Shown: piece by piece, positions 11,404 to 30,432 of the stretch
Layout of the letters: each line of letters begins with the position of its first letter
How positions within the stretch are numbered: the stretch's first letter is position 1
NCBI GenBank assembly: GCA_013414795.1
Contig: CP058732.1
Coordinates: 2,519,737-2,583,736, forward strand
From: Candidatus Kapaibacterium sp.
GTDB lineage: Bacteria; Bacteroidota; Ignavibacteria; Kapaibacteriales; UBA2268
Reading direction: 5' to 3'
DNA: 64,000 nucleotides
Position numbers and translations under genes: made by a program
Notes under the pieces: generated by a model
What the model was told of the DNA's origin: nothing
Seen by the model: only the letters and a program-made list of their open reading frames with translations
Database searches by the model: none

Positions 11404-13458
11404 CTACAAAGATTTTTGTTCTACAACGGGTTCATAATGAGAAAATTCCATCGAATACGATGCTCTGCCCTGGCTCAATGATCTTAAATCGGTAACATAT
11501 CCAAACATATGGGAAAGCGGTGCAACTCCTTTAATGATTTGCACATTTCCTCTTTGTTCAATTGCATCAATTTTCCCTTTCCTTGCGTTAAAATCTGCGA
11601 TAATATCGCCAACATATTCCTCGGGTGTAACAATCTCCACTTTAAAAACTGGTTCGAGCAGTACAGATTTTGTCTTTCGCAAGGCTTCGCGAACTGCCAT
11701 TGAAGAAGAAATTTTGTATCCCAACTCTGTATAAAATTCTCGTTCGTACCTACCATCGATTACATCGACACCGACGTCGGTCAATGGATAGCCAAGAAAT
11801 CCTATCTGTAATCCTTCCTTAATTCCTTCTTCAATGGCGTTCCAAAATTGCTTTGGAATCACATTGTCATTAATTTGAAATTCTACTTTATTTCCAACTC
11901 CACGAGGTAACGGTTTCAATTTTATTCGTACATATCCAAAATTGTTTTTCCCCGAAATCTGCTTGTCGAAGAGGTAATCTTGTTCTATTTCCTGGATTAT
12001 TGTCTCGCGGTATGCAACTTGGGGTTTACCAATTTTAACTTCCAAATTATACTCGCGTTTCAATCTGTCTACAATAATTTCAAGATGAAGTTCTCCAACG
12101 CCGCTAATAATGATTTCCCCACTTTCTTCATCATTATTAAAACGGAATGTTGGGTCTTCGTCGGCAAATCTGTTCAAACATTCAATTAGTCTATCTCGGT
12201 CTTGTTGTGTTTTTGCCTCAATTCTTTGATTGATAACTGGTTCTGCAAAAGTAATTCTTTCGTAAAGAATTTTGTGCTTCTCGTCGCAAAGTGTATCACC
12301 CGTTTTTGTAACTCTTAAATCTGGAAATGCTACGATATCTCCGCTATATGCTTCGTTAATTTCTTCCTTGCGGTTGGCATACAATCGCAAAATCTTCTGA
12401 ATTCTTTCACGTTTGCCAGCATTGGCATTAAATACCGATTGTCCAACAGTTAAAGAACCAGAATAAATTCTTACGAAAGTCAATTTTTTTAGATATGGGT
12501 CGGAAAGTATTTTAAACGCCAATGCCGAGAAAGGTTCCTCGTCGTTTGCTTTGCGACTTTGCTTTCTATCGTGGTTGTTAAAATCGTAGCCATAGAAAAC
12601 ACCAATGTCGGCTGGCGAAGGAAGATACTTGATTACACCATCCAAAAGTGGTTGAACTCCAATATATTTTTTCGAAGAACCGCAAAAAACTGGAACGAGT
12701 TGGTTCGAAATTGTTGCCTTTCGCAAACCAGATTCAATTTGCTCAACAGTTAGAGTTCCATTTTCGAGGTAGTAATTCAACAGTTCGTCGTCGGTTTCTG
12801 CTACCAAATCGACAAGTTTTTCCCGCCACTGTCTTGAAATTTCAATCATTTCCTCGGGTATTTCTTCGTATGAATATCGAAAGCCTTTTACTTCTTCATC
12901 GAAGTATATTGCTTTTTCTTGTATCAAATCAATAACACCAACAAAATTCTCCTCGGCACCAATAGGCAACTCTACTACCGCAGGCTTTGCGTTTAATTTC
13001 TCTTTCATCATATCTATAACACGGAAGAAATCCGCACCCAAACGGTCCATCTTGTTTACATAGGCAATTCTTGGCACATTATACATATCTGCCTGGTGCC
13101 AAACAGTCTCCGATTGTGGTTCAACCCCGCCGACAGCACAAAATATTGCAACTGCTCCGTCGAGAACTCGCAAAGAACGTTGAACCTCGGCGGTGAAATC
13201 TACGTGCCCGGGCGTGTCTATTAAATTTATTTGATGGTCGCGCCAGAAGAAAGTAGTCGCAGCAGAATTAATTGTAATTCCTCTTTCCTTTTCCTGTTCC
13301 ATATAATCCATAAAAGCGGTTCCGTCGTCAACTTCGCCAGGGCGATGGAGAAAACCCGTATAGAACAAAAATCTTTCTGTAGTGGTCGTTTTCCCCGCAT
13401 CGATGTGTGCCATAATTCCAATATTTCGCACCTTTTCTATTTCAACCTTGCGGGGCAT
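11404..13458 (-). CDS. fusA: Elongation factor G paralogue, mt-EFG2/spdEFG2-like (probable ribosome-recycling factor)
   Basis: This is a five-domain EF-G GTPase of 684 residues. It has P loop [26 protein letters not shown] and NKMD. Several features set it apart from translocase EF-G and recall human GFM2 and spirochaete EF-G2: the [16 protein letters not shown] start, the [18 protein letters not shown] switch I region, and domain IV, where the usual GGVIP and HxVDSSE elements are replaced by DNVIPKQFW and [15 protein letters not shown]2-type factors split post-termination ribosomes with RRF. It occupies the str-operon site between rpsG and tuf. The recycling role is inferred from these motifs. 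Confidence 0.85.
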
Positions 13459-13985: not shown

Positions 13986-14372
13986 TTATTTTGCAACTGC
14001 TTGTTTTGGTCGTTTAGTACCATATTTCGAGCGTCCTTGTTTCCTTCCTTCAACTCCTTGCGTATCCGCAACGCCTCGCACTATATGATAGCGAACACCT
14101 GGCAAATCTTTCACACGACCGCCGCGAACATATACAATCGAGTGTTCTTGCAAATTGTGCCCTTCGCCAGGAATGTACGCAATTACCTCGTAGCCAGAAC
14201 TCAATCGCACCTTTGCTACTTTACGCAACGCAGAATTTGGTTTCTTCGGCGTTGTTGTGTACACACGCGTGCAAACGCCTCGTCTTTGCGGACACGCTTT
14301 CAATGCAGGCGATTTACTCTTCTTCTTTACCTGCTTTCTTGGCTTTCTAACTAATTGACTAATTGTTGGCAC
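13986..14372 (-). CDS. rpsL: 30S ribosomal protein S12
   Basis: S12 controls decoding accuracy at the A site. The 128-residue product starts [20 protein letters not shown]. It keeps [19 protein letters not shown] and [10 protein letters not shown], the two segments whose lysines decide streptomycin sensitivity; the first shows the wild-type KK pair. A TAATTTTG-type promoter lies about 50 bases upstream, so it is the first gene of its own transcription unit. Confidence 0.98.
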
Positions 14373-14419
14373 CCAACCACTCCTAATTACTTATATAAAA
14401 AAACCAAATAAAGAGACTA

Positions 14420-14447
14420 CAAAATTACAAAAAAAATTAATATGCAA
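14420..14447 (-). promoter_or_regulatory. Putative Bacteroidota-type promoter of rpsL (str/S10 operon)
   Basis: On the minus strand TTG (14445-14447) is followed after 17 bases by TAATTTTG (14420-14427), an exact match to the TAnnTTTG -7 element of Bacteroidota housekeeping promoters. The predicted transcript would start about 40 bases before the rpsL ATG. The same TAATTTTG appears before the tRNA cluster and mraZ. Confidence 0.65.
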
Positions 14448-14523
14448 TATATTTTTCTAAAAAATTTACTTTTTGTTAAAAAAATTTTATTTGGGGGAAT
14501 TTATCTAAAAGACCAAATGTCTC

Positions 14524-15495
14524 TTATCTAAACTTAATAAGATTTAGAATATTCTTCCACAATATGAAATATTTGCCGTTCTTGTTGTTAAATCTTTTCC
14601 AAGATGAAATAATTTCCAATTCTTTAAAAATTCTTATAATGTCTGTTAAATCTCTCTTAACATTGGTTCTTTGTGTTGCTAACTTTTCTTGTAAAATTTT
14701 TTTAGAAAGTAAATCAACAAAAAAATTTGTGCTTTCGAACCAGTCGTATTCGTCATTTAACTCTTGAATAATACCAATAATATCTATGTAGTTTCCATCA
14801 ATTAAAAACTGTTTCCTAAAAAAAGCCTTAAGTTTTTCGCTATCGCCAACATCCATTGCAAGAAGTTCTTTCCCAATTTCTGTAACTTGAAACATACTAA
14901 AATCGAATAACTTTAAATCTCTCAACAATAATTTTGTGTTTAGAACATTTGACTTTGGCGAGGATTTCCAATTTCTAATTTTTTGCAAACCATTCCAAAT
15001 CACATCATCAACTTTTTTAGGATCGTTTTGCACGGTATATGATGAATCTTTCAATTCAAGAAGTACAGAGTAAATTTCATTTATTTTTAGGTCCCTATAA
15101 TATGCATATCCTCTTTTAATTTTTTCAATTTTTGGTTTTATACCTTTGGGCTTAACAGGATCTCGAAAAACAGCTACGTTTGAACCATCGACCAAAATAA
15201 TACCAACAAAATTTGGCCAAAGGAAATCTTCCATAGAAGAGAACTCTTTCGAAGGAAGTGCCAGATACGCCTTGTCAGAATGCCTATAAAAAGCAATTGT
15301 TTGTCCCAAACCTGTAAGATATTCTCTTCGGGTTGCATTGCTTGGCTTACACTCAATTTGTAATATCGTTCCATCGGTATATTGTATTTGAATATCTGGA
15401 ACAGGGAATGAATATGAAAACCTGGTTACAATTTCTACATCTGGTTTTAACTTAAACCAATTTGATACACTTTGTATGACCTCAGAATGTGTCAT
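14524..15495 (-). CDS. Putative type II restriction endonuclease (PD-(D/E)XK fold)
   Basis: The 323-residue product starts at the ATG at 15495, which overlaps the stop of the upstream methyltransferase by four bases (ATGA). Its first 90 residues show a PD-(D/E)XK nuclease core: PD at 33-34, a beta strand, then ECK at 48-50 and a Q-containing helix (TGLGQTIAFY). The remaining two thirds look like a helical, winged-helix-like region without a family I recognise. The pairing with a DNA methyltransferase argues for a restriction enzyme. The specificity cannot be read from the sequence. The DNA is more AT-rich than the flanking ribosomal genes, consistent with horizontal gain. Confidence 0.75.
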   Translation of the reverse strand: MTHSEVIQSVSNWFKLKPDVEIVTRFSYSFPVPDIQIQYTDGTILQIECKPSNATRREYLTGLGQTIAFYRHSDKAYLALPSKEFSSMEDFLWPNFVGIILVDGSNVAVFRDPVKPKGIKPKIEKIKRGYAYYRDLKINEIYSVLLELKDSSYTVQNDPKKVDDVIWNGLQKIRNWKSSPKSNVLNTKLLLRDLKLFDFSMFQVTEIGKELLAMDVGDSEKLKAFFRKQFLIDGNYIDIIGIIQELNDEYDWFESTNFFVDLLSKKILQEKLATQRTNVKRDLTDIIRIFKELEIISSWKRFNNKNGKYFILWKNILNLIKFR

Positions 15496-16388
15496 TTTGG
15501 TTTTCTGAAAATAATAACATAATCGTGATTGCAAATAAAATAATTTGAACGGAGAGAACGATATTTGTTGATGTTCATCTTTCCCATTCGAGAACTTGCA
15601 AAACGAGTAACTTTTATTACTTTTGTATAAAATTCAAATCCAGTTTCCATACCTACTTTGGTAGTATAATAATCCAATGGTATAGTTTTCCCACCCTTTT
15701 TAAAATCGTCGCCAATTAAAACGCAAAAAAATCTTCCTTTCTTCAACAAATGATAAACACCTTTAAAAACTAATCCCAACTTTTGCAAAAAGCCATCAAG
15801 GGTCGATTCATTGGATAAGTCGCCTTCGACATTTCCATACTCTTCACTATACTTTACTAATTCCCAATATGGTGGATGGGCGAAGGAGAAATCGAAACTT
15901 TCTGGCTCGAAATCCATTTCAAGCAACTTCGTAGAATCGCCAACGATGACTTTTTGCTGTTTCAACCAGTAATTCAACTCGTCGTCGCCAAAATCAAGTC
16001 GTTGTTCTTCTAAATTTAGCCGGGCTAATTCAGCAATTTTGGGATTTATTTCAATTCCAATGCATTTTCTTTTTAAATGTGCAGCTACAACTAATGTCGT
16101 ACCCGAGCCACAGAATGGTTCAAGGATTAAATCGCCCTTTTTTGAAAAGCGCAGCATACATTGACGAGGAATTTCAATGGGTGAATTACCGTGAATTGTA
16201 TATTTTGTCCAATTGTAGGGGTCTCTTTCGGGGGTATCCCATATTGTAAAAAATTGAAGATTTTCTTTCTCTTCGTATTCTTTCCACTTGTCCGGCTCTA
16301 AATCGTTTACACTGGCATTCTCGGATTTTGTAATCCTACCGTTAACCTCCAGAGAATCGGCATTGTTTGTCTCGAAAATTTCGTTCAT
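15492..16388 (-). CDS. DNA methyltransferase of a type II restriction-modification system
   Basis: This 298-residue protein transfers methyl from S-adenosylmethionine to an exocyclic amino group of adenine (N6) or cytosine (N4). Motif I is LEPFCGSGTT (residues 89-98) and the catalytic motif IV is AHPPYW (170-175), a variant of the usual DPPY/SPPY. Motif I precedes motif IV. The stretch HGNSPIEIPRQ before motif I resembles the segment in permuted amino-methyltransferases. It is coupled to the nuclease gene downstream. A 69-base gap, starting with AT-rich sequence, separates it from the upstream EF-G gene. Confidence 0.88.
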   Translation of the reverse strand: MNEIFETNNADSLEVNGRITKSENASVNDLEPDKWKEYEEKENLQFFTIWDTPERDPYNWTKYTIHGNSPIEIPRQCMLRFSKKGDLILEPFCGSGTTLVVAAHLKRKCIGIEINPKIAELARLNLEEQRLDFGDDELNYWLKQQKVIVGDSTKLLEMDFEPESFDFSFAHPPYWELVKYSEEYGNVEGDLSNESTLDGFLQKLGLVFKGVYHLLKKGRFFCVLIGDDFKKGGKTIPLDYYTTKVGMETGFEFYTKVIKVTRFASSRMGKMNINKYRSLRSNYFICNHDYVIIFRKPK

Positions 16389-16457
16389 TACAAAAAGTTA
16401 AAAAATCAAATTACAAAATACGAGTTTAAAAAAATAAGAAACAAAAACTTTAAAATA

Positions 16458-18545
16458 CTAACTTTTCTTGTTTTTCCTATGCTCCTCAATAATTGAATCT
16501 TGGACTGTTTTTGGTACGGGTGCATAGCGTAAAAATTCCATTGTAAATTCACCTTTGCCCTGGGTTACACCCCTCAAATTGGAAGAATAACCAAACATCT
16601 CCTTCAAAGGAACTTCTGCTTCGACAACAACAAAGCCATTGTCCACTCTTGTGTCGACAATTATCCCTCGCCTTTGGTTGATTTGTCCAATGATTACACC
16701 TTGAAACTCTTCTGGAGCGGTTACTTCCAATTTCATAATCGGTTCGAGGATTATTGGTCCAGCCTTTTGCAATGCTTCCTTCAAAGCATATTTGGAAGCA
16801 AGTTTAAAAGCCATTTCCGAAGAGTCGACCGGATGGGTTTGACCATCGTTCAAAACTACCCGAATATTTACAATCGGTTGGTCAACAAGAATTCCCTCTT
16901 TTAATTGCTCTTGGAAACCCTTGTCGCAAGCAGGAATAAATTCCCGAGGTATCACCCCGCCAACAATTTTATCTACAAATTCATATTCTTTGCCTTCTGT
17001 TCCATCTATCGGTTCAATGTATCCTGCAACGCGAGCAAATTGACCAGCACCGCCAGTTTGCTTTTTGTGTGTATAATTGAACTCTGCTCTTCGTGTAATT
17101 GTCTCTCGATAGGCAACCTTTGGTTGCCCGACAACAACTTCGCAATTGTATTCTCGCCGTATCCTCTCCAAATAGATTTCTAAGTGCAACTCGCCCATAC
17201 CCTTGATTACTGTTTCGCCAGTTTCTTCGTCCCGATAAACTTGAAAAGTCGGGTCTTCCTTCTGAAATCGATTTAACGCTTTAGAAAAATTATTCAATGT
17301 TGTTTTTTCCTTTGGTGCAACGGAAAGTTCAATAACTGGTGTTGGCACATACATAGATTGCAAAGAGTAATTCACAGTTCCATCGGTAAACGTGTCGCCA
17401 GAATAACATTCAACGCCAAACATTGCAATAATATCTCCTGCAAAGGCTTCCTCAATCTCGGACATCTCTTGTGCGTGCATTCTAACTATTCTTGGAACTT
17501 TTATCTTTTTCTTCGACTTCACGTTGTAAATCATATCCCCTTTGCGAACTTTACCCTGGTAAATTCTCATATATGTTAATTGTCCGTATCGACCATCTTC
17601 CAATTTAAAAGCAAGTCCAACAAAAGGCTTTTCGGGAGAGCATTCCAAGCGGACTTTTTCTTCGTTGTTATCCAAATCGAAGGCTTCGTATTCACGTTCA
17701 GAAGGGTTTGGTAGAAACATTCCAACACCATCAAGCAAGGGTTGTACTCCTTTATTCTTTTTAGCCGACCCACAATAGACGGGAGTAACCAAATGCGAAA
17801 TTGTTGTCCTTCGCAAAGCATTAATAATCAAATCAGTTGGAACTTCCATATCCGAGAGAAACAGTTCAGCAATTTGGTCGTCGAAGTCAGCCAATGTTTC
17901 GATAATTTGTAATCTTCGAAACTCTGCCTCGTCGATTAAATCCTCTGGAATTTCCTTTTCGACAACAATTTCCCCATTCTCGCCTTCGAAATAAATTGCT
18001 TTCATTTTCAACAAATCCACAACCCCAGTGAAATTTTCTTCCAAACCAATTGGCATTGTTATCATAACGGGACGCAAATTCAGCTTCTCTCTCATTTGCT
18101 GGATAACTTTATCTGGGTTCGAACCAGAACGGTCTAACTTGTTAATGAAAGCCAATCTTGGCACATTGTACCTTCGTATTTGTCTGTCTACTGTAATTGT
18201 TTGACTTTGTACACCTGCAACACCGCAAAGAACAAGTATAGCACCATCGAGAACTCGAAGCGCTCTTTCAACTTCGACAGTAAAATCTATGTGTCCAGGC
18301 GTATCAATTAAATTGACGTGGTAATCTTTCCATTTAAAATAAGTTGCAGCGGACTGAATTGTGATACCTTTTTCACGCTCGAGTTCCATCGCATCGAGAG
18401 TTGGTCCAGCGCCGCTTTTATCGCGTACTTCTACAATCTGATGAATTCGACCAGTGTAATACAAAATTCTTTCGCTTAGGGTAGTTTTCCCCGAATCAAT
18501 ATGGGCAGCAATTCCAATGTTCCTTATTTGAGTTAAGTTATTCAT
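16458..18545 (-). CDS. fusA: Elongation factor G, mt-EFG1/spdEFG1-like (probable translocase)
   Basis: This is a GTPase that moves tRNA and mRNA during translocation. It begins [20 protein letters not shown], typical of mitochondrial EFG1 and its bacterial spdEFG1 relatives. It keeps [22 protein letters not shown] and an intact domain IV with [18 protein letters not shown] and [12 protein letters not shown]. The ATG at 18545 is used (a TTG two codons earlier is unlikely), giving 695 residues. It lies after rpoC, separated from it by a terminator. The other EF-G at 11404 lacks these domain IV elements, so this copy probably does the translocation. Confidence 0.88.
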
Positions 18546-18584
18546 TTCCAATTAATTTAAAAAGTAACACATACAATTTCTTTT

Positions 18585-29990: not shown

Positions 29991-30014
29991 ATTGTCCCCT
30001 TTTCAAAAAATTAG

Positions 30015-30087
30015 CAGGGGTGGAAGGACTCGAACCCTCAGCCTACGGTTTTGGAGACCGCCGCTCTGCCAATTGAGCTACACCCCT
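30015..30087 (-). tRNA. tRNA-Trp (anticodon CCA)
   Basis: This folds as a 73-base cloverleaf: acceptor AGGGGTG/CACCCCT, D arm with AGCTCAATTGGCAGAGC, anticodon loop CTCCAAA, T arm GTTCGAGTC and discriminator G. The terminal CCA is not encoded. It is the last tRNA before secE. Confidence 0.97.
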
Positions 30088-30094
30088 TTCCTCG

Positions 30095-30167
30095 AGCTGA
30101 TGACCGGGATTGAACCGGTGACCTCTTCCTTACCAAGGAAGCGCTCTACCAACTGAGCTACATCAGC
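30095..30167 (-). tRNA. tRNA-Thr (anticodon GGT)
   Basis: A 73-base cloverleaf with acceptor GCTGATG/CATCAGC, anticodon stem CTTCC/GGAAG and loop TTGGTAA. CCA is not encoded. Only seven bases separate it from tRNA-Trp, where many bacteria have tufB. Confidence 0.97.
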
Positions 30168-30178
30168 ATTGTTGTGAG

Positions 30179-30251
<73 letters not shown>

Positions 30252-30267
30252 GCTCAACACAATCTCG

Positions 30268-30340
30268 AGCGGGAAACGGGACTCGAACCCGCGACCCTCA
30301 GCTTGGAAGGCTGATGCTCTACCAACTGAGCTACTCCCGC
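30268..30340 (-). tRNA. tRNA-Gly (anticodon TCC)
   Basis: A 73-base cloverleaf with anticodon stem TCAGC/GCTGA and loop CTTCCAA. It differs from tRNA-Gly(CCC) mainly in and next to the anticodon arm. CCA is not encoded. Confidence 0.96.
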
Positions 30341-30349
30341 ATCCTCTCG

Positions 30350-30432
30350 TGGGCAGGGAAGGATTCGAACCTCCGAAGGGATACCCCAGCAGATTTACAG
30401 TCTGCCCCGTTTGACCGCTTCGGTACCTGCCC
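30350..30432 (-). tRNA. tRNA-Tyr (anticodon GTA)
   Basis: An 83-base tRNA with a long variable arm typical of bacterial tRNA-Tyr. Acceptor is GGGCAGG/CCTGCCC and the anticodon loop is CTGTAAA. It is the first gene of the tRNA-secE-nusG unit; the predicted promoter lies 14 bases upstream. Confidence 0.97.

Follow-up and report, generated by a model that had tools for sequence, protein, structure and literature searches.

Restriction-modification (R-M) pairs that have inserted into operons are already described. As far as the accessible text of PMC4615327 goes, pairs of the PabI family lie inserted in operons whose genes share one strand, other families are cited there, and the PabI-family insertions show both mobility and long inheritance. 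Described nucleases may provide a structural counterpart as well. The accessible text of PMC10201449 describes PaqCI as a Type IIS enzyme whose nuclease domain is N-terminal. PaqCI, FokI and BpuJI each have separate PD-(D/E)XK and recognition domains, an arrangement that the nuclease reported here, judged from its model, may share.

We analysed a window of 64,000 nucleotides from the single 2.66-Mb contig of a Candidatus Kapaibacterium sp. genome (G000), in which a DNA methyltransferase gene and a nuclease gene lie between fusA1 and rpsL. Like the PabI-family pairs in the accessible text of PMC4615327, this R-M pair sits in a same-strand operon, but the host operons differ, and R.PabI is a DNA glycosylase, unlike the PD-(D/E)XK-type nuclease at this locus. 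Judged against that account, the pair is a familiar kind of defence cassette; our search of the open-licence literature found no report of an R-M pair between fusA and rpsL or in the str operon. Our data make it likely that the two genes form a Type II R-M system, probably with a separate C-terminal recognition domain in the nuclease, and that this system reached the boundary between rpoB-rpoC-fusA1 and rpsL by gain or by relocation. The locus lets related genomes be compared with and without an R-M cassette that has entered the str region upstream of a conserved promoter-like box, and its nuclease family, which has no curated profile in the libraries searched, could supply new specificities.

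The original prediction had placed a coupled methyltransferase and nuclease between an EF-G gene and rpsL, all in one direction, and this arrangement was confirmed. Positions 14373-16457 run exactly from the end of fusA1 (16458) to the start of rpsL (14372), and all features of this locus given below are on the minus strand. In the direction of transcription the order is rpoB, rpoC, fusA1, methyltransferase, nuclease, rpsL, rpsG, fusA2 and tuf, where fusA1, fusA2 and rpsL are named by family matches and rpoB, rpoC, rpsG and tuf by sequence reading. The upstream neighbour fusA1 (EF-G; 16458..18551; TIGR00484, E 2e-285) is followed by an AT-rich gap of 69 bp between its stop and the methyltransferase start (16389..16457), by the methyltransferase gene (298 aa; 15492..16388) and by the nuclease gene (323 aa; 14524..15495), whose start overlaps the methyltransferase stop in an ATGA (15492..15495). 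A gap of 151 bp, which contains the promoter-like box of rpsL, then separates the nuclease stop from the rpsL start (14373..14523), and rpsL itself (S12; 13986..14372; PF00164, E 5.3e-41) is the downstream neighbour. The nuclease reading frame called mechanically begins at 15534; the ATG at 15495 is the likelier start, because the other copies begin MTH or MNH. The overlap of stop and start suggests translational coupling, by which the methyltransferase would be made first and protection before cutting would be favoured; in the related genome G001 the overlap of the two genes is 1 base. No translocase or specificity subunit was found beside the pair, which in the window is flanked on either side by fusA1 and rpsL.

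Amino-methyltransferases carry motif I in the form FxGSG and motif IV in the form (D/N/S)PP(Y/F/W). In the methyltransferase studied here, motif I is FCGSGTT (residues 92-98; 16095..16115, minus strand), predicted by family to bind SAM and invariant from F92 to T97 in the four aligned copies. Motif IV is AHPPYW (residues 170-175; 15864..15881, minus strand), predicted by family to be catalytic, with AHPPY invariant in the four aligned copies. The histidine in HPPYW is unusual, and HPPY occupies motif IV in 10 of the 10 distant methyltransferase loci inspected. The LEPFCGSGTT and AHPPYW named in the original prediction are thus both present, and with FCGSGTT and HPPYW the protein qualifies by its sequence as an N6_N4 amino-methyltransferase. 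Pfam N6_N4_Mtase matches it with E 1.1e-26 and a score of 94.6 against a cut-off of 26.7, and the PADLOC profile MTase_II (PDLC03351) matches residues 15-296 with E 3.6e-51. The solved protein 2zie aligns to it as two swapped pieces, which indicates that motif I precedes motif IV, a permuted order relative to 2zie; the structure model of the methyltransferase, with a pLDDT of 42.6, is too low in confidence for fold comparison. In the proposed system this enzyme would place its mark on a short motif of the host's own DNA. When viral contigs and plasmids were queried with the methyltransferase, the former returned four loci with partial segments (27-45% identity) and the latter one record (32.1%). 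Two more distant methyltransferase matches are present in the window genome (L065 6486-7286 and L066 6021-6743; 34% identity each); both span most of the query, and L065 shows two TAA stops.

The nuclease had no match in Pfam, NCBIfam or PADLOC, and against the sequences of solved proteins (PDB) its matches were at chance level or none. In the libraries searched, its family has no characterised member. Two short motifs, FPVPD (P33-D34) and IECK (E48-K50), make up the putative active-site stretch P33-D34 ... E48-x-K50 (15346..15399, minus strand), in which PD and ECK are kept in six of six aligned copies. An AlphaFold2 model (mean pLDDT 79.0), built from four sequences of which one is a fragment, predicts the order helix-strand-strand-strand-helix-strand for residues 3-81. 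In the model, therefore, the nuclease combines the alpha-beta-beta-beta-alpha-beta core with the PD...(D/E)xK motif of PD-(D/E)XK enzymes, in agreement with the nuclease type originally predicted. The model further divides the chain into an N-terminal catalytic part (about 1-117) and a mostly helical C-terminal part (about 128-323).

Foldseek with this model returned one match under E 0.001, 3dnx. With VIA-align, the N-terminal part matched 3dnx (Z 11.0) and two XisH-type proteins (Z 9.3-9.4), and the C-terminal part matched the recognition domains of FokI (Z 9.4-9.6) and BpuJI (Z 8.8-9.0), although Z values of such size on mostly helical models may be due to chance. The whole chain aligned to PaqCI with Z 15.6 over 304 residues (rmsd 15.7) and, in a second alignment, with Z 11.9 over 292 residues (rmsd 11.9); given these rmsd values, PaqCI fits the nuclease only as separate domains. 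BrxA, which is a BREX protein and not a restriction enzyme, reached Z 10.3 on the C-terminal part, above FokI. Separate catalytic and recognition domains are in keeping with the model and the alignments, but at Z 8.8-9.6 on a helical part for which BrxA scores 10.3. In domain order, with the catalytic domain first, the nuclease agrees with PaqCI as the accessible text describes it, whereas PaqCI chains have 482-492 residues and the nuclease 323; PDB searches gave no sequence match between the nuclease and PaqCI, FokI or BpuJI. The architecture may thus be Type IIS-like. The relation to restriction enzymes that the original prediction presupposed holds in so far as the predicted fold and the pairing with a methyltransferase are concerned, but sequence similarity to a known enzyme does not bear it out.

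The nuclease is single-copy in the window genome. With this genome included in each count, it occurs in 5 of 60 relatives, in 6 of the 54 family genomes, in 7 of 391 genomes in the class sample (one of them, G545, with a short distant match) and 3 of 395 genomes in the phylum sample. A profile search of genome contigs found the nuclease in the Ignavibacteria MAG SKW251, a MAG filed as Chloroherpeton thalassium and the Ignavibacteriales MAG CROMO_A_84; the same contigs searched with the single nuclease sequence gave no match, and the nuclease was not found in phage records. Among the collections searched, the nuclease family was seen only in the Chlorobi/Ignavibacteria class. Plasmid records held four Acinetobacter matches of 74 residues only. 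In this plasmid system (pBspH11, pAV1), a "hypothetical protein" is 40.8% identical to the nuclease over 74 residues that span the catalytic stretch, but the rest of the nuclease is unmatched. In the two records inspected, the matching gene is adjacent to its partner, which is annotated as a DNA cytosine methyltransferase and differs in size from the methyltransferase here.

Within the class, the pair is present as six whole or nearly whole copies (G000, G001, G004, G034, G435 and G655) at five places, plus one wreck (G002). The nuclease gene directly follows a close relative of the methyltransferase gene in all six copies, and the G002 fragments lie in the same order; the two genes are thus adjacent and co-inherited, as methyltransferase and endonuclease genes are in Type II R-M systems. 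The G004 copy lies between ftsK and an rnhB-like gene, with a frameshift in the methyltransferase and a stop in the nuclease, and the G034 copy, with one stop in the nuclease, adjoins a glmS-like gene. Both frames are open in the G435 copy, which adjoins a gene of 414 aa, and in the G655 copy, which lies between a 112-aa ORF (after an rseP-like gene) and a dnaX-like gene; the glmS-like, rnhB-like, rseP-like and dnaX-like genes were named by eye. Three of the seven copies (G002, G004 and, by one stop, G034) are broken or fragmentary, which indicates that the pair is dispensable. That the G004 copy had entered an ancestral ftsK-rnhB junction was considered and rejected, since rnhB gave no match (E 1e-3) in the stretches around ftsK in G000, G001, G002 and G003, which reached up to 1.5 kb beyond the match. 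The 112-aa ORF that directly precedes the pair in CROMO_A_84 (L089 3725-4063) has no significant Pfam match (best E 0.08) and is possibly a regulator. The G545 locus (L095 1212-4729) contains cytosine-methyltransferase-like ORFs, a 408-aa ORF and a Vsr-like ORF, all named by eye; the 408-aa ORF has the catalytic core of the nuclease in common (27.1 bits) and is possibly its relative in another kind of R-M system.

In the five genomes of the genus, the fusA1-rpsL junction holds the intact pair in two (G000 and G001), fragments in one (G002) and neither gene in two (G003 and G004). The stop-to-start gap between fusA1 and rpsL is 121 bp in G003 and 139 bp in G004, and 85 bp in the outgroup G009, which also lacks the pair at this place. 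As in R-M insertions into operons, the genes lie on the same strand, and the junction is empty in some genomes (G003, G004) and filled in others (G000, G001). The comparison thus did not find the pair at this place in all relatives, the outcome that would have refuted the original prediction. Given two intact, one fragmentary and two empty junctions, the cassette would most simply have entered this boundary on a single occasion, in a common ancestor of G000, G001 and G002, three species of a Chlorobi/Ignavibacteria genus; it is also possible that no such gain took place and that G003 and G004 cleanly lost the pair. In a host tree from five genes, G003 falls outside the group of G000, G001 and G002 (support 94 for protein and 71 for DNA), and the branching order inside this group of three differs between the protein and DNA trees. 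No target-site duplication or repeats were seen by eye in the gaps at the insertion edges. In G002, the fragments of the methyltransferase and nuclease genes come after fusA1 in unchanged order, an unrelated gene follows them, and rpsL is on a different contig, with neither fusA1 nor rpsL at a contig end (L060 5394-6247, L055 2422-2706). This split may be a misassembly. A simple inversion is not supported, since the candidate genes are not adjacent in G000, where the ortholog of the gene facing fusA1 in G002 has its start at 2583804, and that of the glmS-like gene near rpsL is at 2292213.

The trees of the nuclease (R) and the methyltransferase (M) have one topology, ((G000,G001),G004),(G034,G435), with the G655 copy as outgroup. 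Their inner supports are 72-99, and they agree with the host grouping where that grouping is known. Because the two trees coincide and fit the host grouping, the pair seems to have been long resident in these lineages, with site moves or transfers between close relatives. Between G000 and G001, pS is saturated (0.76 for M and 0.80 for R) while pN is low (0.17 and 0.24), so both genes have long been under constraint; they evolve faster than rpoC (pN 0.061) or fusA1 (0.081). On these sequence comparisons we regard the pair as no recent arrival, maintained by selection in two lineages, with decay in a third. The original prediction had called the pair AT-rich and apparently gained. The first half of this statement stands, with GC contents of 36.2% for the methyltransferase and 30.8% for the nuclease against 40.4% for fusA1 and 46.0% for rpsL. 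Low GC as proof of recent transfer was rejected: at third codon positions (GC3) only the nuclease is low (methyltransferase 33.8%, fusA1 35.2%, nuclease 25.6%), the methyltransferase being close to fusA1, and the same pattern recurs in G001 (28.3, 30.8 and 24.7%).

The cassette is very probably Type II. The model of the nuclease pairs a catalytic domain at the N-terminus with a C-terminal part similar to the recognition domains of Type IIS enzymes, and for this reason our preferred reading is a Type II system that is possibly Type IIS-like. In such a system, the nuclease would cut DNA without the mark via its N-terminal PD-(D/E)XK domain and, like Type IIS enzymes, would probably have a separate recognition domain at the C-terminus. 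Two methylation activities are usual in Type IIS systems, and the presence of only one adjacent methyltransferase beside the nuclease counts against this type. It is quite possible, if not what we would expect, that the system is Type IIP-like, with a dimeric nuclease, a palindromic site and a C-terminal half that serves as an accessory or dimerisation domain, which would leave the R-M reading unchanged. A single compact methyltransferase, as found here, suits a palindromic site, and the catalytic part also matches SdaI (Z 7.8), EcoT38I (Z 6.7) and HindIII (Z 6.4-6.6). The matches of the C-terminal part to the FokI and BpuJI recognition domains, although helical and possibly due to chance, and a domain order identical to that of PaqCI point in the other direction. 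We consider it doubtful that an undescribed nuclease family of Type IIS architecture and a single small HPPY-type methyltransferase constitute a minimal Type IIS system, with one-strand or unusual methylation, that moves between the boundaries of housekeeping genes without an adjacent recombinase.

A role outside defence, with a regulatory methyltransferase and a nuclease-like protein that is inactive or acts in repair, could be proposed from the resemblance of the N-terminal part to EndoMS (Z 6.7) and to the Pyrococcus abyssi protein 2vld (Z 7.8). It is very improbable, however, given that PD and ECK as well as the pairing with the methyltransferase persist in all six copies and that both genes decayed together in G002 and G004. 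The pair might also act as an addiction cassette, whose post-segregational killing deters loss or rearrangement of the rpoBC-fusA1 and rpsL blocks, and the accessible text of PMC4615327 interprets same-strand R-M operon insertions in this way. At the present locus we find this unlikely: the pair has decayed in G002, where fusA1 and rpsL are now on different contigs, and other copies stand beside ftsK, the glmS-like gene, the rseP-like and dnaX-like genes or the 414-aa gene, so that we see no particular association with the str genes. The decay to fragments of a copy beside fusA1 likewise counts against the earlier suggestion that neighbouring essential genes stabilise the system.

In the window, the promoter-like box of rpsL, TAATTTTG (14420..14427, minus strand), lies 55 bp ahead of the start of rpsL. 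The box stands 53-60 bp before rpsL in five of five genomes of the genus, within a conserved stretch, and fits the TAnnTTTG promoter type of this bacterial group. Its conservation makes the junction look like the edge of two transcription units. The pair lies upstream of the box, in line with the original placement of the str promoter after the cassette, so rpsL and the ribosomal genes would retain their own start signal.

The gene order around rpsL had been assumed to be normally free of cargo, and our survey of its upstream edge does not support this assumption. Among the best 30 of 59 genomes with an rpsL match, 25 have 1.5 kb upstream of rpsL, and five loci with 83-619 bp were left out. 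In these 25, the window genome included, the upstream gene was fusA1 in nine (82-158 bp away, measured to the end of the match), the R-M pair in two and rpoC in one; the remaining 13 had neither fusA1 nor rpoC within 1.5 kb. Directly downstream of rpsL, rpsG was found in 29 of the best 30 of 59. In these bacteria, the upstream edge of rpsL is thus a variable boundary rather than a protected one, which makes the location of the pair less surprising. The varied upstream genes (L021, L023, L029-L032, L035-L038, L040, L042) include, as read by eye, a phage portal-like gene (G026), a flagellar hook-like gene (G012) and one with an NPPY methylase-like motif (G005). Two EF-G genes (window 11404-13458 and 16458-18551), both above the EF-G equivalog cut-off, flank rpsL-rpsG, and the same layout, with EF-G genes on both sides of rpsL, occurs in 9 of the 25 genomes with 1.5 kb upstream. 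Elsewhere in the window, five tRNA genes (Trp, Thr, Gly, Gly, Tyr) form a cluster at 30014-30432 on the minus strand.
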